Of a DNA stretch of 64,000 nt, positions 24,354 through 58,922 are shown in pieces. The position numbers and the translations under genes are program-made. Source of the DNA: Pirellulaceae bacterium (GTDB lineage: Bacteria > Planctomycetota > Planctomycetia > Pirellulales > Pirellulaceae); contig JAQWSU010000016.1 of assembly GCA_029243025.1 (NCBI GenBank), forward strand, positions 1 to 64,000. Reading direction: 5' to 3'. Positions within the stretch are counted from its first letter, which is position 1, and each line of letters begins with the position of its first letter. Below the pieces are notes generated by a model. That model was not told the DNA's origin, made no database searches, and was given only the letters and a program-made list of their open reading frames with translations.

Positions 24354-25616
24354 TCAGCGATCCGATTGTTCAGCTAAATTCGTGTAGGTACGACCTTTTG
24401 AGAGACTGTAGTAATTCGCGCAGGCTTTTCGGGCCTGGTCGGTAATCCATTTGGAATCTCGACCGTAATCGCCAAACCGATCGGGCCGAAGTGCAGTCAG
24501 ATCTTGCCCGGGATCACCTTCGATAATCCAGCGACTCAACCAACGCCCCACCGCAGCAGATCCGGCGACTCCCATGGCACCACAGCCGGAGCCCACCCAG
24601 ATTCCCTTCACACTTAAGACGGGTCCCACGACGTACTGACTGTCGGGAGTACAGGTCACCATACCTTGGCGATATTCCTCGATCACTAGATCGGCCAAGC
24701 GTGGAAATAGATCCTCAAGTCGCTGCCGTGCTTCCTCCATTAACTCGAGAGGGGGCTCAATATTTTTCGTGCGGAATCCAGCAGGCTGGGACGAAAGCTG
24801 GATCGCGAGAGGATCGGGATCAAAAAAACCGTAGAGGTAGCCGCCCTTTTCCGGCCGCAAGTAACAGCTTCGATCCGGTATTCGCACGACCGGATGTTCC
24901 GCGGGCATTTCTGGGTCGACAACCGTTCGCGCTTGCTGAAGCCGAATTGGCTGGATGGGCACCGAAAAGGCGGCAAGTTCCGCCACCGCGCGAGTCCAAG
25001 GTCCGGCAGTAATCACTGCAGCAGACGTTTCGATTTCACCTTGATTTGTAAGAACAGCGATTAATTGCTGGTCGCGGATTTCAAATCCTGTGACTTCGGT
25101 ACCAAGTCGTATCTCGGCACCACAATCTTTTGCGGCAGCCGCAAACGCCTTTGCACATTGGACTGATTCCACATATCCGTCGTTTGGCAGATAAATCGCA
25201 CCTTCGATTTGAGATTGATCGATCGACGGCGCGATTTGTGAGATCAAACGGTCGGACGCAAGTCGCACATCGATTCCGAGTTTCGCCGCCTGAGGCATTT
25301 GTGAAACAAAAGCAGCCAACCGTTGCTGATTCAGCGCTAGATGGAGACTACCGGATCGAAAAAAACCGGGGTCATGCCCCGTCTGCTGCTGAAAGTTCGA
25401 AAGCAATTCGAGCGTATAGCCAACTCCCTCAGCCATGAGTCGTGTGCCGCGCAGCTGGCCAACTTGGCCTGCTGCTTGCCGTGTCGTCTCATCGGCCAAC
25501 TCGTGATTGCGTTCCAGCAACAGCACGGATCCCACCTGTCGCGAGCTTGCCAAATGGTAGGCCGTGCTGAGCCCCCAAATCCCACCTCCAATCACCACGA
25601 CATTTTTCGTACCCAT
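24354..25616 (-). CDS. FAD-dependent oxidoreductase (DAO family) of the phosphonate cluster
   Basis: Flavoprotein of 420 residues in the glycine/D-amino-acid oxidase (DAO) fold. The N-terminal dinucleotide-binding motif is VVIGGGIWGLSTAYHLA, followed by an acidic end at LLLERN; the C-terminal FAD-contact region is GIWVGSGCGAMGVAGSAAVG. The family oxidises amines or N-methyl amines. The gene is third in a reverse-strand series after phnA and phnY, 107 bases behind phnY. Related DAO flavoproteins (reported as PbfC/PbfD) occur in phosphonate clusters and oxidise 2-aminoethylphosphonate or its N-methyl form to phosphonoacetaldehyde. No PhnW transaminase is visible here, so the same role is inferred; sarcosine or glycine oxidase-like activity is the main alternative. 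Confidence 0.78.
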   Translation of the reverse strand: MGTKNVVVIGGGIWGLSTAYHLASSRQVGSVLLLERNHELADETTRQAAGQVGQLRGTRLMAEGVGYTLELLSNFQQQTGHDPGFFRSGSLHLALNQQRLAAFVSQMPQAAKLGIDVRLASDRLISQIAPSIDQSQIEGAIYLPNDGYVESVQCAKAFAAAAKDCGAEIRLGTEVTGFEIRDQQLIAVLTNQGEIETSAAVITAGPWTRAVAELAAFSVPIQPIRLQQARTVVDPEMPAEHPVVRIPDRSCYLRPEKGGYLYGFFDPDPLAIQLSSQPAGFRTKNIEPPLELMEEARQRLEDLFPRLADLVIEEYRQGMVTCTPDSQYVVGPVLSVKGIWVGSGCGAMGVAGSAAVGRWLSRWIIEGDPGQDLTALRPDRFGDYGRDSKWITDQARKACANYYSLSKGRTYTNLAEQSDR

Positions 25617-25723
25617 CCAGGGTCCTCCTCATCTTGCCCAAGGTCGCGGTGCGAAGCGAACAGCGACTTACGGTGTACGGCCTTACAGCGACATGACTCG
25701 ATGACAGCTCGGTCCCGAGCATT

Positions 25724-27166
25724 CTACCAGGGCAGCGAAAATGTTTTCACATTGGTCATGAATTTCATGGCTTCGATGACCCCTTCTTTGATGCCCAATC
25801 CCGAATCCTTCAGCCCACCGAACGGCGAGCATTCGATGCGGTAGCCGGGCACCTGATTCACGTTCACGGTGCCGGTGCGAATCCCTTTAATGGCCTTGAT
25901 CGCTTTGCCCATATCCTGCGTGACAACACCGCTTGAAAGCCCAAAGGCGGTCGCATTCGCCAATTCAATCGCATCGTCTAAATTCTTGACCGCCATAATC
26001 GGCGCAAGTGGCCCAAAGGACTCCTGCACGACCATGTCAGCATCACGTGGCACGTCGGCAATCACCGTCGGTTGCAATTGAGCGCCCTGGCGCCCACCAC
26101 CGAGCAGCACTTGAGCTCCGGCTGCAACCGCATCGTCAACCCGTTGTTCGAGCACGATCGCCGCTTGCTCATCAATCACGGTTCCGACTCGCGTCTCACC
26201 ATCCGCCGGATCACCGCACAGGTATTCTTTTGCTCTCTCGACAAAACGGCCTGTAAACTCTTCCAGGATCGCTTCATCAACAAGTAATCGCTTAACAGCT
26301 GTACAACGTTGCCCCGAATTCCGGAAGCAACCTTCGGCGGCCAGAGTCACTGCCAATTCAAGATCCGCATCATCCAGAATCAGCAAGGGTGAATTACCCC
26401 CCAATTCCAAACATAATTTTTTGTAACCAGCCGTCGCTGCAATCTGCTTACCAATCGCAGCACTGCCGGTAAAGCTAACGAGTTCAACACGTTCGTCACG
26501 AATCATCGGTGTAACAAAATCGTCAATTGGCCCTAACATGACGCTCAGCATCGGCCCTGGCAAACCGGCCTCGTAGAGCAATTCAGCAAACTTCACCGCG
26601 GTGAGGGGCGTCTTTTCGGAAGGCTTTAAAATAACGGGAACTCCAGCGGCAATTGCAGGAGCCAGCTTGTGAGCAACTTGATTTAAGGGATGATTAAAGG
26701 GAGTGATCGCAGCCATCAATTGCAACGGCTCGCGGGTGGTGAATATTTTACGAGGCTTGCCCTGCGGTGAAACATCACAAGAAAAAACCTGCCCGTCATC
26801 TTTCAACGCTTCCATCGCGGCAAACTGTAAGACATCTTGCGCACGCCCCACTTCGTAATGCGTCTCTCGCATACACAAACCCGATTCAAGTCGAATAAGG
26901 TCAGCAAATTCACCAGCCCGTTCTTTCAACAGACGTCGGGCCTGATCGAGAATCTCCGATCGCTGGTAACGCGTCAGCTCCGATGAAAAGGAGAGCATCG
27001 CACAAATGGCTTCCTCCAAATGCTGCTGAGCAAGCATGGGGATGTCACCCACCAGACTGCCGTCGTAGGGGTTGTGCACCTCAAGCTTTGAATCACTCTG
27101 AACGGCTTTGCCTGCCACATACGCGGGAACCGACAAGAAAGAACTGGGGGATCTGACATTGCTCAT
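25724..27166 (-). CDS. phnY: Phosphonoacetaldehyde dehydrogenase
   Basis: Aldehyde dehydrogenase of 480 residues that would oxidise phosphonoacetaldehyde to phosphonoacetate with NAD(+). It closely follows the PhnY pattern: LEVHNPYDGSLVGDIP near the N-terminus, GQVFSCDVSPQGKPRKIFTT around residues 125-144, AITPFNHPLNQVAHK, the general base Glu in LELGG (about 254), the catalytic Cys in NSGQRCTAVKR (288) and NVKTFSLPW at the end. These stretches match characterised PhnY more than ordinary aldehyde dehydrogenases. Its start overlaps the phnA stop by four bases (ATGA), so translation is coupled. Substrate assignment comes from sequence pattern plus the phnA neighbour. Confidence 0.9.
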   Translation of the reverse strand: MSNVRSPSSFLSVPAYVAGKAVQSDSKLEVHNPYDGSLVGDIPMLAQQHLEEAICAMLSFSSELTRYQRSEILDQARRLLKERAGEFADLIRLESGLCMRETHYEVGRAQDVLQFAAMEALKDDGQVFSCDVSPQGKPRKIFTTREPLQLMAAITPFNHPLNQVAHKLAPAIAAGVPVILKPSEKTPLTAVKFAELLYEAGLPGPMLSVMLGPIDDFVTPMIRDERVELVSFTGSAAIGKQIAATAGYKKLCLELGGNSPLLILDDADLELAVTLAAEGCFRNSGQRCTAVKRLLVDEAILEEFTGRFVERAKEYLCGDPADGETRVGTVIDEQAAIVLEQRVDDAVAAGAQVLLGGGRQGAQLQPTVIADVPRDADMVVQESFGPLAPIMAVKNLDDAIELANATAFGLSSGVVTQDMGKAIKAIKGIRTGTVNVNQVPGYRIECSPFGGLKDSGLGIKEGVIEAMKFMTNVKTFSLPW

Positions 27167-28428
27167 GCCATGACTCCGTTACACGTAAATTCAAACAGAT
27201 CAAAATTCCGAGGATCACCGGCAAGTTTCGTCGCGTACTCATCGACAATCGGTTCGGAGATCAAAAACGGCACCATTTCCTCATACCGACCGCCGTGAGA
27301 TCGCAACCCTCCTTCGAGATGCGACAGATCATGATCGGCCACTGTCCGACCAATAACGACGTCGCGTGCCGACATGACGACAAGGTCGCCGATTCGATCG
27401 GCTGGCAACTCGAGTTGTTCCGCCGCCACTTCTCGGCTGTAGACTTCCGTGATTCCCGGTAACGCGAGAATCCAAGCAGCCACTTGATCCGTTTTCACTG
27501 CATCCGAAAGGTGCACCGTGACAAATGAACCCAAGGCACCATGATGGACCACATAGGGATCCGTAATTGGACAAATAACTTGCTGCCCAGCACCAAACTG
27601 TTTCGTGAGCAAACTCTCGAGGTAGATCACGTTGGGTCGACCGTCGGCGTCATTTTTGGCATTCATCCCATGATCCGCCGTGATCCCGATGACTGCACCG
27701 AGTTCCATGAGACGACCAATCTGCTGATCCATCGCTTCGTAAAATGCCAGCGACGGCTCCGACTCCGGTGTAAATTTGTGCTGCATGAAATCGGTCAACG
27801 AAAGATAAAGGAAATCAGCCAGCTTGTGCTCGAGCAAAGCGACGCCCGCCTGCAACACATAGACGCTCGCGTCCGCACTGTAAATTTCGGGCTTGGACAG
27901 CCCAACGAGCTGCTCTACGTTGTCGATCCCGTGCGTCTCGCCAACCGCTTCATCAGCTCGTTCAGATGAAAAAGCAATCCCTTCAAGACTCGATGACAGG
28001 ATATCACGTAGCTTTTCTTTTGCAGTCACCACGCCAACCTTACGGCCAACCTTCGCAGCCTCAGCGAAAATGGTTCCACAACGCAAGTAGGATGCGGAAT
28101 TCATCATCACCTCTTCCCCCGTATCCGGATCCAGGAAAAAATTGCCGCTGATTCCCGTTTTGGATGGAGCAATCCCTGTGGCGATCGCTGCGTTATTGAC
28201 ATTGGTGAAAGAGGGTAGGGCGCCGCGAACAAAGCCTCGATATCCATCTCGGGCAATTCGAGAAACATGGGGCATTCTCCCACGAACCATCGACGCACTC
28301 AGATACTCATCAGCACATCCATCAATGCAAATACCGACAACGGGACGCGCAGGAGGTCGATAGGTGCGACCGTTGATGGAGAATTCACGCGTCGAATAGG
28401 TCGATTGAGACAACGATGTTGAAGACAT
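27163..28428 (-). CDS. phnA: Phosphonoacetate hydrolase
   Basis: Alkaline phosphatase superfamily enzyme of 421 residues that cleaves the C-P bond of phosphonoacetate to acetate and phosphate. Metal-binding and catalytic landmarks are visible: GICIDGCADEY with the first Asp (36), SFTNVNNA with the nucleophilic Thr (75), ITADHGMN with the Asp-His pair, and RSHGG near the C-terminus. The stretch TGISGNFFLDPDTGEEVMMN is typical of PhnA of this type. It is the first gene of the phosphonate series and overlaps phnY by four bases. A XylR-type regulator is divergent, about 230 bases away. This PhnA is unrelated to the E. coli protein of the same name. Confidence 0.92.
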   Translation of the reverse strand: MSSTSLSQSTYSTREFSINGRTYRPPARPVVGICIDGCADEYLSASMVRGRMPHVSRIARDGYRGFVRGALPSFTNVNNAAIATGIAPSKTGISGNFFLDPDTGEEVMMNSASYLRCGTIFAEAAKVGRKVGVVTAKEKLRDILSSSLEGIAFSSERADEAVGETHGIDNVEQLVGLSKPEIYSADASVYVLQAGVALLEHKLADFLYLSLTDFMQHKFTPESEPSLAFYEAMDQQIGRLMELGAVIGITADHGMNAKNDADGRPNVIYLESLLTKQFGAGQQVICPITDPYVVHHGALGSFVTVHLSDAVKTDQVAAWILALPGITEVYSREVAAEQLELPADRIGDLVVMSARDVVIGRTVADHDLSHLEGGLRSHGGRYEEMVPFLISEPIVDEYATKLAGDPRNFDLFEFTCNGVMA

Positions 28429-28660
28429 GGATCCTACGCAATTTGAAGAGTGGGCGAACAGAAAAAAATCACGTTATGAATATTGATCAAGCCGTCGACA
28501 ACTCAAAATCACCCGCCAGCGGTGGCGAGCACGCATATCAAATTGCCTGCCGCTTTGTACAATGGGTAAGTTGGCAATATAGTTGATCATTTGCACATCG
28601 CAGCTGCAAGCCGTCTGTGAACTGCGATTCCAGATATCCTTCACTCGCACGATTCCAACC

Positions 28661-29812
28661 GTGGACGACGAACATTACAAAGTGGCTCTGCTTGTGCAAA
28701 CGGCTAGTGACTGGAGCCGACAAGTCTTGCGTGGTGTTGCCGATTACGTTCACGAGCAAGGCAACTGGGAGTTTTTCATCGAACCTCGTGGTTTTTATGA
28801 ACAATTACAATTGCCAACGGACTGGCATGGCGACGGAGTCATCTTGCGATTGACCTACGCCGCACTGGCAAAATCCATTCGGCGACGAAAATTGCCAGCA
28901 GTCAACGTTTCCTGGCTAGGAAAACATTCTCCGTCTATTCCTAAGGTGATCTCCGACGAAGTGGCCTGTGGAAATCTGGCGGCTGAACATTTCCTGGAAC
29001 GTGGATTTCGTTGTTTCGGCTATGTGGGCCCTATCCGAGAACTTGGATATGCTGATCAGCTTGGCAAAGTATTTGTGAGTGTGGTCCGTGAGACAGGCTA
29101 CTCTTGCTCAATAACTAATCCCTTGGCAGCGCGTACAGAAAGCCAACGCCATCGACGGCGAGAGCGATTACTGCGATGGATCAGGTCACTGCAAACCCCG
29201 ATCGCCGTCTTGGTTTGGAACACTGCGATTGGACGAGAAATCACCGACATCTGCGGCGAAGTAGGCTTAAAAGTGCCCGATGATGTGGCGATCATCTGTG
29301 CGGAATATGATCCACTCATCGCCTCCTTAGCCTCCATTCCACTTTCGAATCTCGATCAGGCGCCAACTCGGGTGGGCTATGAGGCAGCCGCCCTGCTGGA
29401 TCGACTGATGCAGGGCGAATCGGCTCCGAAACAACCTATCTTGATTCCACCGATTGGCGTCGTTCAGCGTCAGTCTTCCGATACAGCGGCGGTTGACGAT
29501 GCGCTCGTCGCCGAAGCGATGTCCTTCATACGCGACAACTTTCAACAACCCATTCAAGTCGTTGATCTGGAAAAACAATTTGATGTTTCCCGCCGAATGT
29601 TAGAACATCGTTTTTCGAAATCATTGGGCTATACACCCGCCGCCGAAATCCGCCGAAATCGATTGGAGTACTGCAAGCGGATGCTGGTGGAGACTGACTG
29701 GACAATTGCCGCAATCGCGAGTCAATCAGGCTTCAATCACCCTGAAGTAATGATTCGGGCATTTCAGCGAGAATTAGGGATGTCTCCGAGCCAATATCGT
29801 CACTCACGCTAG
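28661..29812 (+). CDS. XylR-type AraC regulator with periplasmic-binding-like sensor domain
   Basis: The protein has a LacI/periplasmic-binding-like domain (KVALLVQTASDWSRQVLRGV, AEHFLERGFRCFGYVG, DDVAIICAEYDPLI) followed by an AraC-type double helix-turn-helix at the C-terminus (FDVSRRMLEHRFSKSLGYTPAAEI and IAAIASQSGFNHPEVMIRAF). This combination is annotated as XylR in many planctomycetes. I start at GTG 28661, which places the sensor domain about seven residues in and gives a normal length of 383; the frame is open back to a TTG at 28583. It is divergent from phnA, which suggests it regulates the phosphonate genes, although the family name refers to xylose. The ligand is unknown. Confidence 0.85.
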   Translation: MDDEHYKVALLVQTASDWSRQVLRGVADYVHEQGNWEFFIEPRGFYEQLQLPTDWHGDGVILRLTYAALAKSIRRRKLPAVNVSWLGKHSPSIPKVISDEVACGNLAAEHFLERGFRCFGYVGPIRELGYADQLGKVFVSVVRETGYSCSITNPLAARTESQRHRRRERLLRWIRSLQTPIAVLVWNTAIGREITDICGEVGLKVPDDVAIICAEYDPLIASLASIPLSNLDQAPTRVGYEAAALLDRLMQGESAPKQPILIPPIGVVQRQSSDTAAVDDALVAEAMSFIRDNFQQPIQVVDLEKQFDVSRRMLEHRFSKSLGYTPAAEIRRNRLEYCKRMLVETDWTIAAIASQSGFNHPEVMIRAFQRELGMSPSQYRHSR

Positions 29813-44578: not shown

Positions 44579-45138
44579 TTGATCAATCGAACATCAACGG
44601 TATTAACACGTCGGTCGCCCAGGCTCGCGCTGCATTAAAGGCCGCGAAGATCAATCTTGCCTGGACCGATGTCAACGCACTCAGTGACGGGTTCGCCGTT
44701 GCAAACGCCTTGCGCCCGGGACAACGTGTCACAAGCATGGCGGTGCGGGGCTGGATGTCTTACGTCGTCACCGATGACATGCGATTTGCCGTTGCCATTG
44801 ACCAATTCGCTTTGCGGCACGTCAAGTCAGGCCAACCCGCCGAAGTCACCCTAAAACTGTATCCGGGCGAAACTTTCCAGGCGACGGTGGAGGAAATTGT
44901 TTCCATCAATCATGAAGCTCAAATTCGACCCTCCGGGGAAATTCCCAAGAGCCCATCATTTGGAACTTCTCCCTACATGGTTCTGCTAACGCTCGAGAAT
45001 CACGATCTCACCACCCGTGATTTACCCGGTGGATCTATCGGCACGGCAGCAATCTACACCGACGTCGCCAAACCAACTCAGCTGATTCGAAAAATCATGA
45101 TTCGCATGCAGGCCTGGATGAATTATGTGTTTCCCTAA
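44575..45138 (+). CDS. HlyD-family protein (YiaV-like), second half in -1 frame
   Basis: This frame continues the HlyD-like protein: SVAQARAALKAAKINLAW finishes the helical hairpin, then TDVNALSDGFAVANALRPGQRV is the second lipoyl-like half and FALRHVKSGQPAEVTLKLYPG the beta-barrel domain. The nominal TTG start at 44575 has no ribosome binding site, so independent initiation is unlikely; translation would have to come from the upstream half, by frameshift or reinitiation at the overlap with its TGA. The gene ends at 45138 with the usual C-terminal segment (IRKIMIRMQAWMNYVFP). A perfect 18-base tandem duplication lies 20 bases downstream. Confidence 0.75.
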   Translation: MIDQSNINGINTSVAQARAALKAAKINLAWTDVNALSDGFAVANALRPGQRVTSMAVRGWMSYVVTDDMRFAVAIDQFALRHVKSGQPAEVTLKLYPGETFQATVEEIVSINHEAQIRPSGEIPKSPSFGTSPYMVLLTLENHDLTTRDLPGGSIGTAAIYTDVAKPTQLIRKIMIRMQAWMNYVFP

Positions 45139-51165: not shown

Positions 51166-52302
51166 TCAAGCCGAAGCCGCCGGATAAGCACGTCCACGCC
51201 AAGTCGCTTGCGTACCCCAATAGTGATTCAAGAGTGCCCACCATTGCAGAACCAGAAACAACACAATGGCCAATGGGAACAGGCAAGTCGAGAACCAGGC
51301 ACGGTCAAAACGGAAAGCCGCCAAGACACGAGGCAAATAGGAAGCAGCCATTCCGATCATCGCCATCGGGGGAATGGCCTCCGAACTGAACAACCCCATC
51401 AAGCCCACCACGGTAGGCGCGACATACCCCAGCACCATTAGCACCGTAAAGGGCACGATCAGACGTTCGTTTGCAATCCCCTCGTACGCATTCTTCTCCA
51501 AACCATTCCAGGTCTGCTGCCATCCATGATACATCCGACAGCTGGCAATATCGCTTGCGTCAAAAACATCCGTTTTCAGACGAGCCTGTCGGAATTGGCG
51601 AGGCAACTGCACGCCGTCATGAAGAGAGGCCTTGACGGTTGCATGGCCACCAACTCGCTCGTAGGCCGATTTTGTCGTGAGAAAAAATTGCCCACAACCG
51701 GCCGATGCGCCTTTCATCAAAGTCCGTCTCATCAGCACGAAAGGCAAATAAGTCAGCAAAACGATGTGCATTAAGGGAATCAGCAACGCCTCCCCCAGCG
51801 ATTCCACTTGCTGCTTTGGAAATCCACTTAACAAGGCTACCCCGACACGTTGATATTGGGCCACAGCACGGCAAATCGCATCCGGCGTGAGATGCACATC
51901 AGCATCGAGAAATAGTAAATGCTCATGACTGGCTTGAGTTGCCAGTTGTTGACATGCATACTGCTTGCCACACCATCCCGCTGGCAACGGCTTTCCCTGA
52001 ACCAATCTTACGCGTTCATCGTGAGCTGCGATCTGGATTACTGCCCGATCGGTCCCATCGTCACTGTGGTCATCCAAAACGATCACCTCTAGCTCGACGT
52101 CAAGGTTTGCCAGCACCGCGTCGAGCGTTCTCGAAATGCGATCTACTTCGTTCCTCGCAGGAATCAACACAGATACTGTCGGACGCGAATCAAGAGCGAC
52201 GACTTTCCCCCCAGCTTTCCGAAACAGAACTAGATTCACTACGAATAAGATTGCCGATCCCATCGCGCAAACACAGGCCCCAATCGTCAGCGGTTCCATC
52301 AT
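51166..52302 (-). CDS. Family 2 glycosyltransferase (CrtQ-like)
   Basis: Protein of 378 residues with a GT-A domain: VSVLIPARNEVDRISRTLDA, EVIVLDDHSDDGTD, then FLDADVHLTPDA (the DxD-like motif) and QLPRQFRQARLKTD in the acceptor region, followed by several membrane segments at the C-terminus (VLMVLGYVAPTVVGLMGLF and others). This layout is that of CrtQ, which glycosylates 4,4'-diaponeurosporenoate in staphyloxanthin synthesis; the position after the acyltransferase gene, overlapping it by four bases, supports that role. Other lipid glycosyltransferases share the layout. Confidence 0.8.
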   Translation of the reverse strand: MMEPLTIGACVCAMGSAILFVVNLVLFRKAGGKVVALDSRPTVSVLIPARNEVDRISRTLDAVLANLDVELEVIVLDDHSDDGTDRAVIQIAAHDERVRLVQGKPLPAGWCGKQYACQQLATQASHEHLLFLDADVHLTPDAICRAVAQYQRVGVALLSGFPKQQVESLGEALLIPLMHIVLLTYLPFVLMRRTLMKGASAGCGQFFLTTKSAYERVGGHATVKASLHDGVQLPRQFRQARLKTDVFDASDIASCRMYHGWQQTWNGLEKNAYEGIANERLIVPFTVLMVLGYVAPTVVGLMGLFSSEAIPPMAMIGMAASYLPRVLAAFRFDRAWFSTCLFPLAIVLFLVLQWWALLNHYWGTQATWRGRAYPAASA

Positions 52303-53147
52303 GATGGTACTCCTTCACCACGGCAGTGGCGTGGGTCGAACGATTGCCTGCGCAAAATCGCCTTGGTCCGACGCACCAGATCGTAGCCGCCCCCCACTCC
52401 AGCCGAACCGGAAAGCAGGAGATCAAACGTTTTGTAATCACGTGCAACGGCTTTCTCCGCCAAGCTTGCTTGGGTCTGAGCAAGCCGTTCCTCAAGAAAG
52501 TTTTGCCACTGTGACTTCGATTGTCGTTGTCTTTGAATTTCGATCGGTTCGCCGAATTCGATAAGAGCTTCCGGCGTCCGTTCTTCCCAAAACACGTATT
52601 CGAAGGCCACAGGCAAGAGTGTTGCCTTCTGCTTAGATGCGGCGATATGGGCCAAGCCTGGCTGGAACTTCGTTCGTCGCCTGACATCAGAAAAGGCACC
52701 TCCCGGCGTCACCCAAATGGCGGTAGTAGGATTCAGCAACAACTGTCGCGTGACCCCTAAGAATTGCCGCGCACCTTCGATCGAATCCATTTCGATCCCG
52801 TAGAACCCCAACTGCCGAAAGACCGGATACTGCGCCAGCGACTGCTGATCGATCGGCGTAAAAACAACCCGCCCCGGAAAGCAGAGCTGGTTGGTCAAAA
52901 ATGCGAGCAGAGGATCCCACCAACCGGGATGATTCACGAAACAGACAAGGGATTGGTCGGAAGCAATTGCCGGCTGCGAACCGCGAGCCACGCGTACCGC
53001 ATTGAAGTTCTTTCGCAGTAATCGCCGGCTATACCAATGGAAGCCGCCCAGCAAGAAGCGGGATACCTTTGGCAAACTCCTATCGCTGAATGTGATTTTT
53101 TCGACATCCAGGCTGGCATTCGTAATCGTTTCATTCACGTCGCTCAT
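52299..53147 (-). CDS. PlsC-type acyltransferase in the carotenoid operon
   Basis: I start at the ATG at 53147, behind GAGGGAGAAC and 32 bases after the previous gene's stop; the longer frame to 53258 overlaps that gene. About 282 residues. The acyltransferase motif I is NHPGWWDPLLAF (NHx4D), motif III FPGRV... appears as CFPGRVVFTPID, and motif region VTPGGAFSDVRRRTKFQPG follows. This is the 1-acylglycerol-phosphate acyltransferase fold. In the staphyloxanthin pathway an acyltransferase (CrtO) adds a fatty acid to the sugar, so an analogous role is likely here although CrtO itself belongs to another family. Confidence 0.82.
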   Translation of the reverse strand: MSDVNETITNASLDVEKITFSDRSLPKVSRFLLGGFHWYSRRLLRKNFNAVRVARGSQPAIASDQSLVCFVNHPGWWDPLLAFLTNQLCFPGRVVFTPIDQQSLAQYPVFRQLGFYGIEMDSIEGARQFLGVTRQLLLNPTTAIWVTPGGAFSDVRRRTKFQPGLAHIAASKQKATLLPVAFEYVFWEERTPEALIEFGEPIEIQRQRQSKSQWQNFLEERLAQTQASLAEKAVARDYKTFDLLLSGSAGVGGGYDLVRRTKAILRRQSFDPRHCRGEGVPS

Positions 53148-53179
53148 GTTCTCCCTCGAATCGAACGATCGATCCAGCG

Positions 53180-54733
53180 CTAAGCGGCGGCGGAAGTTTG
53201 AGTTTTGACTGAGCTTGAGCTGGCAATATCTTGATGCAGCGAATCGGCAGCGATCCATCCCGACATCAGCACCATCGGCATTCCTGGCCCTGGATGTGCT
53301 GCACCACCTGCTAGGTACAGTCCCTGCAAGTCTCGACTGCGATTTGCAGGCTTGAATCCGCCCATAAACCGCCCGTGGCTTGCCAAACCATAGATAGCAC
53401 CATTCAAGACATGGTAACGACGATCGATATCCTCTGGAGTGAGTTGAGACTCAAATACGATGTTCTCTTCGATGTCCTCCATTCCGGCTGTTGATCGCAG
53501 CTTTTCTAAAATCGTCTTACGATAAGCAGGTAACATTTTGCTCCAATCATGATGGGAGCGAAGGTAGGGTGTGTGAACAAGCACGTATAACGCTTCTCCC
53601 CCGTTGGGCGCGACCTGGGCCTCGGTCATCGCTGGAGCGCAAACGTAGCAAGTTGGATCAGGTGCCAGCTCACCCTGACGATAAATGGAGTTAAATTCTT
53701 CATGCGGATCGCGAGAAAAGACAAAATTGTGATGCAACAACTGATCGTACCGTCGTTTCAAACCGAGATAGAGCACCACGCCCGAACAGGCAGGTTCGTA
53801 TTTACGACGTTTCATAAAGTTTTGCTCCGCTGCCCCTCCGATTAACTCTCGATGCGTTCTGACCGAATCCGAATTCGAGACCACGAGCGTGGAGGCGATC
53901 TTTTCGCCGCTCTGTAGCCGAATTCCGGTGACGCGCTGCTTTTCAATTTCAATGCGTTCCACAGCTGCATTGGTTCGATACTGCACGCCTAATTCAGTCC
54001 CGAGCTTGATCAACGCTTCCGGAACGGCTCGCGTGCCACCCATTGGATACCAAATGCCTTCATCCGTCTGCATGTGCGCGATACCACATAAGACTGCGGG
54101 AGAGGCTTCGGGGGATGATCCGACGTACTGCGTAAAGTGATCGATCATTTGAGCTACACGCTCTTCGGGAACGCACTTCCGAACCAAGCCGGCAACCGTG
54201 CGTCCCATTCTCAGGCTAAGCACATCAGACAACACGCTTGGCGAAAAGGTCGTCCCTGCGTCAAACGTGTCGCGAATCGACTCGACACTCTTCCAAAAGA
54301 AAAACCGATTCGAGACATCATGCAAACGTTCGGAAATGGCCATAAAGTTTCCGTAACCGTCGCTCACAGCCTTGTTCCCACCTGAGAACCGATCGATATT
54401 TCCCTGCATCACCTTGGTATTCGCAACGAGATCCAGCCGGGAACCATCGTCGAACATACAGCGCCATTGGGGATCAAGCTCAACAAGATCCAGATACTCA
54501 TGCATCGGTTTATTGGCTTCCGCAAAGATGCGGCGCAGAACGGACGGCAAAGTCAGAATAGTAGGCCCCATGTCAAAACGAAATCCCTCTTCGCTCAACA
54601 CGGCTGCTTTTCCACCAAGCCAATCGTTGCGTTCGAGCACAGTAACGGCGTGGCCCCGCGCGGCCAACGTACATGCCGCTGCCAATCCCCCCAAACCCCC
54701 ACCAATCACTGTGACTGATTCACTATGAGACAT
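53180..54733 (-). CDS. CrtI/CrtN-type carotenoid desaturase or oxidase
   Basis: FAD-dependent oxidoreductase of 517 residues: VTVIGGGLGGLAAACTLAARG, VTVLERNDWLGGKAAVLSEEG, GFRFDMGPTILTLPSVLRRI, and the C-terminal GLYLAGGAAHPGPGMPMVLMSG that is typical of CrtI/CrtN/CrtP. It is one of two such enzymes in this operon; one probably introduces double bases into squalene or dehydrosqualene (CrtN-like) and the other may oxidise the end methyl group (CrtP-like). I cannot assign which is which by eye. It lies 15 bases behind the aldehyde dehydrogenase gene. Confidence 0.88.
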   Translation of the reverse strand: MSHSESVTVIGGGLGGLAAACTLAARGHAVTVLERNDWLGGKAAVLSEEGFRFDMGPTILTLPSVLRRIFAEANKPMHEYLDLVELDPQWRCMFDDGSRLDLVANTKVMQGNIDRFSGGNKAVSDGYGNFMAISERLHDVSNRFFFWKSVESIRDTFDAGTTFSPSVLSDVLSLRMGRTVAGLVRKCVPEERVAQMIDHFTQYVGSSPEASPAVLCGIAHMQTDEGIWYPMGGTRAVPEALIKLGTELGVQYRTNAAVERIEIEKQRVTGIRLQSGEKIASTLVVSNSDSVRTHRELIGGAAEQNFMKRRKYEPACSGVVLYLGLKRRYDQLLHHNFVFSRDPHEEFNSIYRQGELAPDPTCYVCAPAMTEAQVAPNGGEALYVLVHTPYLRSHHDWSKMLPAYRKTILEKLRSTAGMEDIEENIVFESQLTPEDIDRRYHVLNGAIYGLASHGRFMGGFKPANRSRDLQGLYLAGGAAHPGPGMPMVLMSGWIAADSLHQDIASSSSVKTQTSAAA

Positions 54734-54748
54734 TCTTCGATCCTCCGA

Positions 54749-56272
54749 TCAAATATTTTTTCGCTTCCAGCTTTGTTGATCAACAATCGCTTTCATTACC
54801 GATCTCAAGCCAAACACTTTTTCCCGCAGCGATGGTCCATGTGCCATTCTCAAAAACCCCGCCAACAAATCGGCATCAAATGGCGTGGGGTGATCCAAGT
54901 GCGGTAACCAGCCACTATTTTGAGAAACCACTGATTTTACTTGTGTCAATTCTTCTAATCCGACCGCCCCACGCGTGACGCCGAATCCACTTTGCCGGCG
55001 ACCGCCAAACGGAACGCGTGGATCGGCCGTTGGGGCGATCATGTCGTTAACCACGACACATCCGGCGTCAACTTGACTCGCGAATTGATTCGCGGCACGT
55101 CGTTCTCCAAATACTGTCGCCCCCAAAGCATAAGGACATGTTTCGTTGATTGCCTTCGCCTCCTCCATGTTGGCGACGGGAACCAAGCAAGTCACGGGCG
55201 CGAACACGTCTGCCGAGAAGATCGGCATGGAGGCATCGACGTCGGACAGAACAGTCGGAAGCAAATGCTCCTCGCCCCCTTTCTGGACGTCAATTCCACC
55301 AATCACCGTGCGAGCCTTGCGTTTGAGAGAATCTTTTACCAACGTCAGTGCTCGCTGGTCATTGGGAACATCATTCTGAACGATCCCCTTCCCATGCTGG
55401 TGCAGTAATTGCTCCAACTCAGCCAGGCGTTCGGTCCCAACAAACACCCTTCGTGGCGCGATACAAGTGGCACTGTTATTGAACCGCAATCCAAACAACA
55501 ACGCTCTCACCACACGATTAAGCGGAGCACTGGAAAGCACAAACACAGCGTCACAGCCAGACAACTCCATGGCGGACGGCGTGAGTGTCTCGGCAAGCAG
55601 AGCTTGGACCTTCTTGCCAGTGTCAGCAGATCCCGTCAGGAGCACCTTATCCACACCTGCAGTTAAAGCTTGCTGCACCGACACGTTGGCATCCGGCAGG
55701 ACTTGCATTAAGTCAGAATCGAGGCCAGCTTCGACCATGAGTTCCCGTAAGGCATTCACCGGTGCGGAGGCATGCAGAGCGGGCTTGACCGCGACTCCGT
55801 TACCGGCCACCAACGCCTGCAGCGTTTGGATTCCCGGCAAGAACAAGGGATAATTCGCCGCTCCCACGATTAACACTAGGCCAAACGGATCACGACGAAG
55901 TTGAACCGACACACCGCGCAACCAAACCGGCCGACTCCGACGACTCAATCGTCGAGGTGCCAGGATACGATTTGCATTCTGTTCGAGAAACCGACAGGCG
56001 TCGGCTAAAGGAATAATCTCAGCCGCTAATGTCTCCGCAGTCCCATTGCGGGACGGATAGGTCACCTTCGTGGCAAGCTGCTCTGCATGCTTAACTAACA
56101 AAACACGCATTCGACGAACCCAACCAAGCCGCACTCGCAAATCCGTTTGTGACCACTTCATTTGGGCGGCGCGAGCGCGAACCAATTTCGACTCAACCTC
56201 GCCTAACGGCAATCGGCTTACATTTGGTGAAGCCCGCGAAATCTGCTGCTGTTCAATTGCGTGTGAAGTCAT
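54749..56272 (-). CDS. Aldehyde dehydrogenase of the carotenoid operon
   Basis: Protein of 507 residues of the aldehyde dehydrogenase superfamily. Landmarks: LVIVGAANYPLFLPGIQTLQ (the N-terminal cofactor region), VLLTGSADTGKKVQALLAE (family form FTGSxxxG), ELSGCDAVFVLSSA with the general base Glu and the catalytic Cys in FNNSATCIAPRRVFVG. The loop ADPRVPFGGRRQSGFG near the C-terminus is standard. Placed between the two CrtN-type genes (10 and 15 bases apart), it would oxidise a carotenoid aldehyde to the acid, as AldH does in staphyloxanthin synthesis. Its divergence from PhnY in this window shows a different substrate. Confidence 0.85.
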   Translation of the reverse strand: MTSHAIEQQQISRASPNVSRLPLGEVESKLVRARAAQMKWSQTDLRVRLGWVRRMRVLLVKHAEQLATKVTYPSRNGTAETLAAEIIPLADACRFLEQNANRILAPRRLSRRSRPVWLRGVSVQLRRDPFGLVLIVGAANYPLFLPGIQTLQALVAGNGVAVKPALHASAPVNALRELMVEAGLDSDLMQVLPDANVSVQQALTAGVDKVLLTGSADTGKKVQALLAETLTPSAMELSGCDAVFVLSSAPLNRVVRALLFGLRFNNSATCIAPRRVFVGTERLAELEQLLHQHGKGIVQNDVPNDQRALTLVKDSLKRKARTVIGGIDVQKGGEEHLLPTVLSDVDASMPIFSADVFAPVTCLVPVANMEEAKAINETCPYALGATVFGERRAANQFASQVDAGCVVVNDMIAPTADPRVPFGGRRQSGFGVTRGAVGLEELTQVKSVVSQNSGWLPHLDHPTPFDADLLAGFLRMAHGPSLREKVFGLRSVMKAIVDQQSWKRKNI

Positions 56273-56282
56273 GTCCAGCGCC

Positions 56283-57806
56283 CTACGCTGCTCGTTTCCG
56301 AGTCGGTTGCCGAACCGTTTCCGACAGACTCAAATCACTACGAATTAAATTGCTGGTAATCCGTGATGATTCATAAATCACCGGCAATCCGCTGCCCGGG
56401 TGCGTACCGCCGCCGACAAGATAAACCGACCCCAAGTCCTCAAATCGATTGTGCGGACGACGATGAAGCATCTGACCAAGGTTGTGAGCCAGATTAAAGG
56501 TGGCCCCGAGGTGAATTTCATGTCCCGAATCCCAATCCGCTGGAGTCACGACTTGTTCAAATCGAATCCGACGCTCCAAATCTGTGACACCAACTTTTTC
56601 CAACTGACGAACAATCCGATTCCGAAATTGTTCGCGCTCTTGGTTCCAATCCACGTTGGCATGCATGTGCGTAACCGGAGCTAGAACGTAGAGTGTACTC
56701 ATCCCCTGGGGAGCAAGTGACGAGTCCGTGACGCAGGCGTTCTGCACATAGAAAGAAGGATCCTCCGAAAGCACGTGCCGTTGCTCGATATCCTGGAGAT
56801 TTCCCTCGTAGTCTTCGGCGATGTGAATTGTGTGATGAGGAAGGTTGTCGAATCGTCCCTCGACACCGAGATACATCATGAAAGTCGAACAAGAGAATTT
56901 TTTCCCCGTCAACTTTTGGTCCGTCCAGCGAGGGCGTAAATGGTCGGGCACAAGGCGATGCATGGCGCGTGAAAAATCAGCATTGACGACCAAGGCATCG
57001 GTGGCATATTCGGCTTGATCCGTTCGAATGCCTACGGCTTTTCGCCCTGAAAAGAGTATTTCTTCCACCGGTTCGTTCAAATGAATCTCAACACCCATTT
57101 CTTGAGCAATTTCAGCCATCCGCTCGCTTACCCGACAACAACCTCCTGTGGGATGATAAATACCATATTCATATTCCAAAAAGGCCAAGATGGAAAACAG
57201 ACTCGGACATTGAAACGGGGACATGCCGAGATATTTTGACTGAAACGAAAAGGCGACAACCAAACGCGGATCGCTGAAATATTTTTGCAATTCGCCTCCG
57301 ACAGAGCGCCACGGTTTCAACATCGGCAAGGCCTTCAACATCGATGGCCGCATCAAATCCACGGCGCTATTGAAAGGCGACTCTAGGATTGGGCGAAAAC
57401 GGGCAAGCTTCTCTCGATTGTCCGTCATGAACCGGACGAACGAGGTCGCATCCTGGGGACAGATTCCGGCAATTTCTTTTTCCATCCGAGCGATGTCCGG
57501 TGTGGCATCAATCTTTCCTCCAGCACCAAAAGCAACTCGGTACTGAGGATCGAGTCGTGTCATGGGCACTTCCGACCAAAGATCACGCCCCACAGACGAG
57601 AAGATCTCAGCCAGCACACGGGGGTAGAGAAAGAAAGTTGGTCCAACATCAAATCGGAATCCATCCGATTCAATGGCCGAACATCGCCCTCCGACTCGAG
57701 GCATACGTTCGAGAATCTTGACGCGTGCGCCCGCGTGGGCAAGCTGCATCGCCGCGGCAAGGCCGCCTGGACCAGCGCCGATGATCGTGACCATCGGCTT
57801 ACTCAT
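56283..57806 (-). CDS. CrtI/CrtN-type carotenoid desaturase or oxidase
   Basis: FAD-dependent enzyme of about 507 residues. I start at the ATG at 57806 because the FAD motif (VTIIGAGPGGLAAAMQLAHAG) follows within a few residues; the longer frame to 57923 adds a sequence unlike the family. Further landmarks: VKILERMPRVGGRCSAIESDG, FRFDVGPTFFLYPRVLAEIF, and SVYLVGGGTHPGSGLPVIYESSR at the C-terminus. Together with the second CrtN-type enzyme it would desaturate or oxidise a C30 polyene. It starts 156 bases after the synthase gene and is followed by the aldehyde dehydrogenase after 10 bases. Confidence 0.88.
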   Translation of the reverse strand: MSKPMVTIIGAGPGGLAAAMQLAHAGARVKILERMPRVGGRCSAIESDGFRFDVGPTFFLYPRVLAEIFSSVGRDLWSEVPMTRLDPQYRVAFGAGGKIDATPDIARMEKEIAGICPQDATSFVRFMTDNREKLARFRPILESPFNSAVDLMRPSMLKALPMLKPWRSVGGELQKYFSDPRLVVAFSFQSKYLGMSPFQCPSLFSILAFLEYEYGIYHPTGGCCRVSERMAEIAQEMGVEIHLNEPVEEILFSGRKAVGIRTDQAEYATDALVVNADFSRAMHRLVPDHLRPRWTDQKLTGKKFSCSTFMMYLGVEGRFDNLPHHTIHIAEDYEGNLQDIEQRHVLSEDPSFYVQNACVTDSSLAPQGMSTLYVLAPVTHMHANVDWNQEREQFRNRIVRQLEKVGVTDLERRIRFEQVVTPADWDSGHEIHLGATFNLAHNLGQMLHRRPHNRFEDLGSVYLVGGGTHPGSGLPVIYESSRITSNLIRSDLSLSETVRQPTRKRAA

Positions 57807-57962
57807 TCGAATACTTGGGCCGTAATTGTCTTTCACTTGAGACACGTTGCTCCATCCATGGATGCCAACTGACTCGGAACTGAGACTGCGAGCAACCTGC
57901 TCACCCTCGCTCCACCACTTCACCGATTCCTTGTGTGACGCCCTGCAGTCACTTCCCTCGAA

Positions 57963-58922
57963 CTATCTCGCCGCAGCCTCCCTGAGCCGAACCCCTTGGA
58001 GTGGGCTCTGCGTACCGTCGCTCGCAACATGATCCAATGGACAGATTATCTCATTCACAACACGAATCACCTCCGACCGTGGCACCTTACTGCCGGGTCC
58101 CAACTGCTCCACACACTCCAGTGCAAGCCAGGCCAGTTGCAGAGGTAGATCGGTGAACGCCACGAATCCGGCGGGTGCCTTCGCTTTTCGAAGCGATGAG
58201 ACGTAGACCGTTGCTTTTTCCAAATCTTCACGCGCAAGTTCAAACAAACGGCCACGTTGCATATTCTCGGGGATAAAGTGGCGGCCCTCCGACCGATCCA
58301 CCTCCGAATCCTTGAGGATATTGACCAACTGCAAACCTTCACCGAACCAACGAGCGTTAGCTTCGATCTCTGTTCGAATGATCTGTAATTCGGGTGAAGC
58401 CAACAAAAACAACTCGGTCAACATTTCACCGACTAAACCTGCCACGTGGTAACAATAATCTCGTAAGTCCTCGAGTGACTGCAAACGTACTGCGCTCGTT
58501 TCATCGCTCGCTTCCAACACCCGCTGCATTCCCACAATGGATACACCGAGATGCTTCAGAATAATGGTACGTGCCTCTGGCTGGAGTGATTCCGTGACTG
58601 CCAGCACCAAAGGCAAGTCATCAAGCAAATCCAAACAATTCTGGTCATCACAGGGCGCCTTGGGAAGCCATTCAGCGCGGTCGACAACCGAAAACTCGTC
58701 CCCTGTCACGAAACCATGCAAGCGATCCAAAGCTTCGAGTTTCTCCGCTTGGGTCAAAAACTGCCCGTCTTCGATTGTATCGGCAACTCGAAACAACAAG
58801 TAGGCAACCGACACCTCGAGTTGAACGGGAGGTGGCAATAGCGGGATTGCCAGCGCAAAGGTGCGACTCGTGCGCGTGAGTAAATCTTGTATTCGTGATT
58901 CGTGATTCGATGAAGAGTTCAT
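57963..58922 (-). CDS. Squalene/dehydrosqualene synthase-type enzyme
   Basis: Prenyl synthase of 319 residues in the trans-isoprenyl diphosphate head-to-head family. The first Asp motif is YLLFRVADTIED, preceded by TSRTFALAIPLLPPPV; DYCYHVAGLVGEMLTELF is the DYCHYVAGLVG region of squalene synthases; the second Asp motif is NILKDSEVDRSEGRHFIPEN. These stretches resemble squalene synthase more than typical phytoene synthase, pointing to a C30 product from two farnesyl diphosphates. As the first gene of the nine-gene reverse-strand series, it sets the pathway: squalene or dehydrosqualene, then desaturation and oxidation. Whether the product is squalene or dehydrosqualene cannot be read. Confidence 0.87.
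   Translation of the reverse strand: MNSSSNHESRIQDLLTRTSRTFALAIPLLPPPVQLEVSVAYLLFRVADTIEDGQFLTQAEKLEALDRLHGFVTGDEFSVVDRAEWLPKAPCDDQNCLDLLDDLPLVLAVTESLQPEARTIILKHLGVSIVGMQRVLEASDETSAVRLQSLEDLRDYCYHVAGLVGEMLTELFLLASPELQIIRTEIEANARWFGEGLQLVNILKDSEVDRSEGRHFIPENMQRGRLFELAREDLEKATVYVSSLRKAKAPAGFVAFTDLPLQLAWLALECVEQLGPGSKVPRSEVIRVVNEIICPLDHVASDGTQSPLQGVRLREAAAR

Follow-up and report, generated by a model that had tools for sequence, protein, structure and literature searches.

A planctomycete phosphonate degradation locus with an unlinked phnW and a flavoprotein of a clade nearest PbfC

N-methylated aminoethylphosphonates are natural phosphorus sources. The N-methyl form of 2-aminoethylphosphonate (AEP) cannot be used by PhnW. 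The flavoproteins PbfC and PbfD turn it into phosphonoacetaldehyde (PAA) and methylamine (PMC10590968). PbfC, described from Azospirillum sp. B510, acts on N-methyl-AEP at 45000 M-1 s-1 and on AEP at 110, a preference of approximately 400-fold; it is a stand-alone PF01266 protein of approximately 413 amino acids, encoded beside phnWX and pbfA. PbfD2 shows only a 4-fold preference for N-methyl-AEP over AEP and is able to replace PhnW. The PbfD2 that was assayed comes from the planctomycete Mariniblastus fucicola, and a PbfD2-PhnYA cluster without phnW has been published for Luteolibacter luteus (PMC10590968).

The window, by which we mean the whole 64,000-nucleotide stretch of a Pirellulaceae genome analysed here, contains phnA and phnY genes overlapping by four bases (27163-27166), a DAO-family flavoprotein gene 107 bp past phnY on the same strand, and a XylR/AraC-type gene divergent from phnA (Table 1). 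All four elements, and their interpretation as a phosphonate module, had been proposed in a sequence-only reading of this DNA and are borne out: PhnA and PhnY were called by the cut-offs of curated NCBIfam models, which both exceed, and both identifications are far above chance. The nearest solved structures are phosphonoacetate hydrolase 1ei6 for PhnA (E=1.4e-116) and 4i3t for PhnY (E=9e-151); the motifs D..QH, DHG and HGG were all found in PhnA, and ELGG and GQRC in PhnY. No terminator-like site was found in the gap between phnY and the flavoprotein gene, and promoter-like sites in the region occur at chance level only. The divergent gene encodes an N-terminal PBP1_XylR domain, a Peripla_BP_3 (periplasmic-binding-protein-like) domain and an AraC helix-turn-helix. 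It is probably the regulator of the operon, judging from its position and from the recurrence of XylR-like genes, which were present in 18 of 80 phnA loci surveyed from genome contigs. Elsewhere in the window, a group of genes on the reverse strand looks like a carotenoid biosynthesis cluster.

Table 1. Locations of the genes and gene clusters discussed, in the window and in other genomes
Feature	Location	Strand	Evidence or content
phnA, phosphonoacetate hydrolase	window 27163-28428	-	TIGR02335, 502.6 bits (cut-off 407.55)
phnY, phosphonoacetaldehyde dehydrogenase	window 25724-27166	-	TIGR03250, 640.8 bits (cut-off 635.65)
PF01266 (DAO) flavoprotein, planctomycete clade nearest PbfC	window 24354-25616	-	PF01266, E=1.9e-61
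XylR/AraC-type regulator, divergent from phnA	window 28583-29812	+	PF22177, PF13377, PF12833
phnW of the window genome	G000:C22:237071-238159		584.5 bits (cut-off 400.8)
Carotenoid-like cluster	window 51166-58922	-	squalene/phytoene synthase, two desaturase-like flavoproteins, aldehyde dehydrogenase, glycosyltransferase
phn-linked DMGDH-type genes	L137 14327; L159 14197; L149 14999; L145 6188; L213 2665-5169; L228 6438-8975
GbcA-like Rieske oxygenase beside flavoprotein and phnAY	L093 1764-4303; L094 4575-7111; L174 8594-11877
DUF5690 (PF18943) MFS-like genes, examples	L094 3061-4461; L125 11170; L137 13030; L145 3212
Site with flavoprotein-clade member	L214 3467-4711
Apparently same site, second genome	L218 7919-14286		different flavoprotein, ETF-like, DMGDH-like and Rieske genes

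The sequence-only reading saw no PhnW, which holds for the window cluster itself and fails for the genome. A whole-genome profile search (genome completeness 96%) recovered a phnW on another contig, whose product exceeds two further PhnW models as well; the gene is solitary and lies outside any phn cluster. A tree of 46 PhnW proteins places it next to the PhnW of a congener, inside a 21-member set (SH-aLRT 95), the other 19 members of which are all phn-cluster genes, 18 from phnA loci and one from the operon at locus L213. The window genome has no PEP mutase above cut-off; a biosynthetic role for the unlinked PhnW is therefore unsupported, and phosphonate biosynthesis was rejected as its function. 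A phnW is present in 16 of the 18 phnA-bearing planctomycete genomes checked, the window genome counted. Hence, absence of phnW from the cluster need not mean absence from the pathway; a PhnW-less route for AEP in this genome is unsupported and, since phnW lies elsewhere in the genome, the flavoprotein most likely supplements PhnW and does not stand in for it. Operons of phnA, phnY and phnW in Planctomycetota and Verrucomicrobiota (L140, L120, L126) share with the window the phnA-phnY pair, a homologous PhnW and, in several cases, a XylR-like regulator, whereas in the window genome phnW is unlinked and the flavoprotein gene holds the downstream place that is often phnW's.

The congener, Planctomycetaceae bacterium SP176 (G392), has phnA and phnY 75% and 79% identical to those of the window (locus L091, with L115 on the same contig), a divergent XylR gene at the same place (69% identical) and matching flanking genes. 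Its phnW is 68% identical and likewise unlinked, in a gene order that matches the phnW region of the window genome, and the split phnW is therefore a pattern in both genomes of the genus. The congener locus has no flavoprotein gene, and a tblastn search for a remnant there returned chance matches only. With the flavoprotein lacking and phnW in the same unlinked position, the flavoprotein evidently varies independently of phnW.

These observations bear on the proposal, made in the sequence-only reading, that the flavoprotein replaces PhnW and produces PAA from plain AEP, as M. fucicola PbfD2 can. The window resembles the PbfD2-PhnY-PhnA pathway in having a flavoprotein beside phnYA and no linked phnW, within the PVC group; the low selectivity of PbfD2 is consistent with such a role, as are six phnA loci from Verrucomicrobiota (L167, L172, L176, L182, L186 and L193; XylR-like regulators in two) in which PbfD-type genes stand beside phnA and phnY without phnW. 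The proposed arrangement therefore exists, but the enzyme and the bacteria that carry it are different ones; given the published PbfD2-PhnYA cluster and the planctomycete origin of the assayed PbfD2, the suggested distinct arrangement is not new in principle. For the window, replacement of PhnW is nevertheless quite improbable: the genomic phnW belongs to the phn-cluster lineage, the congener retains phnAY and an unlinked phnW while lacking the flavoprotein, two further members of the flavoprotein clade share clusters with phnW, and the flavoprotein scores 52.7 bits with the PbfD model TIGR03364, far below its cut-off of 285.1, which no gene in the whole window genome exceeds.

At 420 amino acids, the flavoprotein resembles PbfC in being a stand-alone PF01266 protein encoded in a phn cluster. 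It forms a strong clade (100/99) with five planctomycete relatives of 43-51% identity, four of which came from an order-wide search (G607, G448, G684, G660; 44-51%), the fifth being at L125. The group nearest this clade is PbfC, with a moderately supported join of 94/93, which falls below the strict threshold, and an SH-aLRT of 96 in another tree; the PbfC clade itself (100/100) excludes the flavoprotein. In the tree that gave the 94/93 join, with PbfC and PbfD as the Pbf references, the PbfC group is thinly sampled and comprises Azospirillum B510 and the planctomycete locus L187. The B510 cluster (L034), ordered phnW-phnX-flavoprotein-pbfA, agrees with the published description of PbfC, and a search for PbfC relatives on plasmids gave the B510 gene as the only full-length match. 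The window flavoprotein is only about 30% identical to Azospirillum PbfC, and it differs from PbfC in standing beside phnAY. PbfD membership is rejected by the model score, although an AU test involving long branches leaves grouping with PbfD unrejected (p 0.081), as it does a union with Rieske-linked flavoproteins (p 0.052). Because neither union is rejected, kinship with PbfC is likely, short of proven.

An AlphaFold2 model of the flavoprotein (pLDDT 90.8) aligned best with rat DMGDH (VIA-align, Z 51.9, rmsd 2.3 over 410 residues), no Pbf structures being among those listed. The FAD domain fold is shared with DMGDH structures 5l46 and 4pab at Z of about 52 and 28-29% identity, and this predicted match is evidence of fold only. 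The GCV_T folate domain of DMGDH is absent from the flavoprotein, and Q occupies the position of the TWHAAG His, the covalent-FAD residue in DMGDH; the corresponding motif is TTRQAAG in the flavoprotein and TARAAA or similar in PbfC, and this His is absent from both clades. One could suppose that the flavoprotein N-demethylates di- or monomethyl-AEP to AEP in the manner of DMGDH, leaving PhnW to continue, as the nearest solved structures and the pairing of a clade member with a folate-domain DMGDH and phnW in the L213 operon might suggest. This is improbable in view of the missing domain and His, of an AU test that rejects union of the flavoprotein clade with phn-linked DMGDH enzymes (p 2.5e-6), and of the release of PAA and methylamine, instead of AEP, by PbfC and PbfD (PMC10590968).

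Three of six clade members, from different genomes, lie in phn clusters: that of the window, L125 (phnA-phnY-pbfA-phnW-DUF5690-flavoprotein) and L213 (phnW-folate-domain DMGDH-flavoprotein), the latter two both containing phnW. The genome of the member at L214 (G448) carries phnA-phnY-pbfA-phnW on another contig, and at L215 a folate DMGDH is followed by the contig edge. No PhnA was found in clade carriers G607, G684 and G660, and the most divergent member, L216, adjoins a choline-kinase-like gene; the phn link is therefore real yet not universal. These exceptions, and the absence of the flavoprotein at the congener locus, speak for a reading in which the flavoprotein acts on a secondary amine that is no phosphonate (sarcosine, dimethylglycine or an amine derived from choline) and lies next to phnAY only incidentally. 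We consider this unlikely, as half of the clade members are in phn clusters though PhnA occurs in just 16 of 392 sampled planctomycetes, and as scores for sarcosine oxidase (TIGR01373, 85.4 bits against a cut-off of 529.45; TIGR01377, 83.6 against 479.65) and glycine oxidase (TIGR02352, 112.3 against 250.8) are far under the cut-offs. Identity as a sarcosine or glycine oxidase, which the sequence-only reading had named as counting against its view, was rejected on these scores.

Our preferred interpretation, to which we assign a probability of about one half, is that the locus serves hydrolytic degradation of aminophosphonates, with the flavoprotein as an accessory N-methyl-AEP oxidoreductase feeding PAA to PhnY and PhnA. 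The flavoprotein would convert N-methyl-AEP to PAA and methylamine by oxidative deamination, probably acting like PbfC as a dehydrogenase that binds FAD non-covalently, and plain AEP would be converted to PAA by PhnW, the gene for which is on another contig. From their family membership, PhnY is predicted to convert PAA to phosphonoacetate, and PhnA to convert phosphonoacetate to acetate and phosphate. N-methyl-AEP is the likeliest substrate because phnW is in the genome, kinship is nearest to PbfC, and relatives co-occur with phnW. Oxidation of the Pbf type, perhaps of an N-methylated substrate, had already been suggested, and the position of PbfC as nearest clade lends support to the idea.

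Full-length DMGDH-type enzymes are encoded in or beside phnA/phnY/phnW clusters in nine of the 80 phnA loci, from Verrucomicrobiota and Planctomycetota. The two that were scanned both have PF01266, FAO_M, GCV_T and GCV_T_C domains, and the clade of the phn-linked enzymes is sister (100/99) to a MabO-type enzyme and a Shinella relative, the MabO-type reference being a gene at L264 in a nicotine/purU-folD context. The enzymes of this clade are candidate folate-linked demethylases of N-methyl-AEP. At three loci a GbcA-like Rieske oxygenase gene, with 394 bits to NF058607 and so under its cut-off of 670, stands beside a flavoprotein and phnAY, which suggests a possible route for trimethyl-AEP. Taken together, these DMGDH and Rieske genes suggest a possible pathway in which AEP bearing two or three methyl groups is processed step by step; searches of the window genome gave no convincing match to a folate-domain DMGDH or to a Rieske enzyme close to GbcA. 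We found no previous description of the flavoprotein clade, of folate-domain DMGDH-type enzymes as recurring members of phnAY(W) loci, or of GbcA-like Rieske oxygenases adjoining phnAY. It is a tentative possibility that, alongside PbfB, PbfC and PbfD, the flavoprotein clade makes up a fourth group of N-methyl-AEP oxidoreductases, found in planctomycetes, which in relatives would work beside the DMGDH-type demethylases (and, where other phn clusters encode them, GbcA-like Rieske oxygenases) in removing methyl groups stepwise from poly-N-methylated AEP before PhnW, PhnY and PhnA act. If so, another enzyme group would open these phosphorus sources to bacteria.

Two further features of the surveyed loci were recorded. 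DUF5690 MFS-like proteins are encoded in about 19 of the 80 phnA loci and are a candidate phosphonate transporter family. The sites at L214 and L218, apparently the same in two genomes of one genus, are occupied by a flavoprotein-clade member and by a different set of genes respectively, with alkaline phosphatase-like genes near both.
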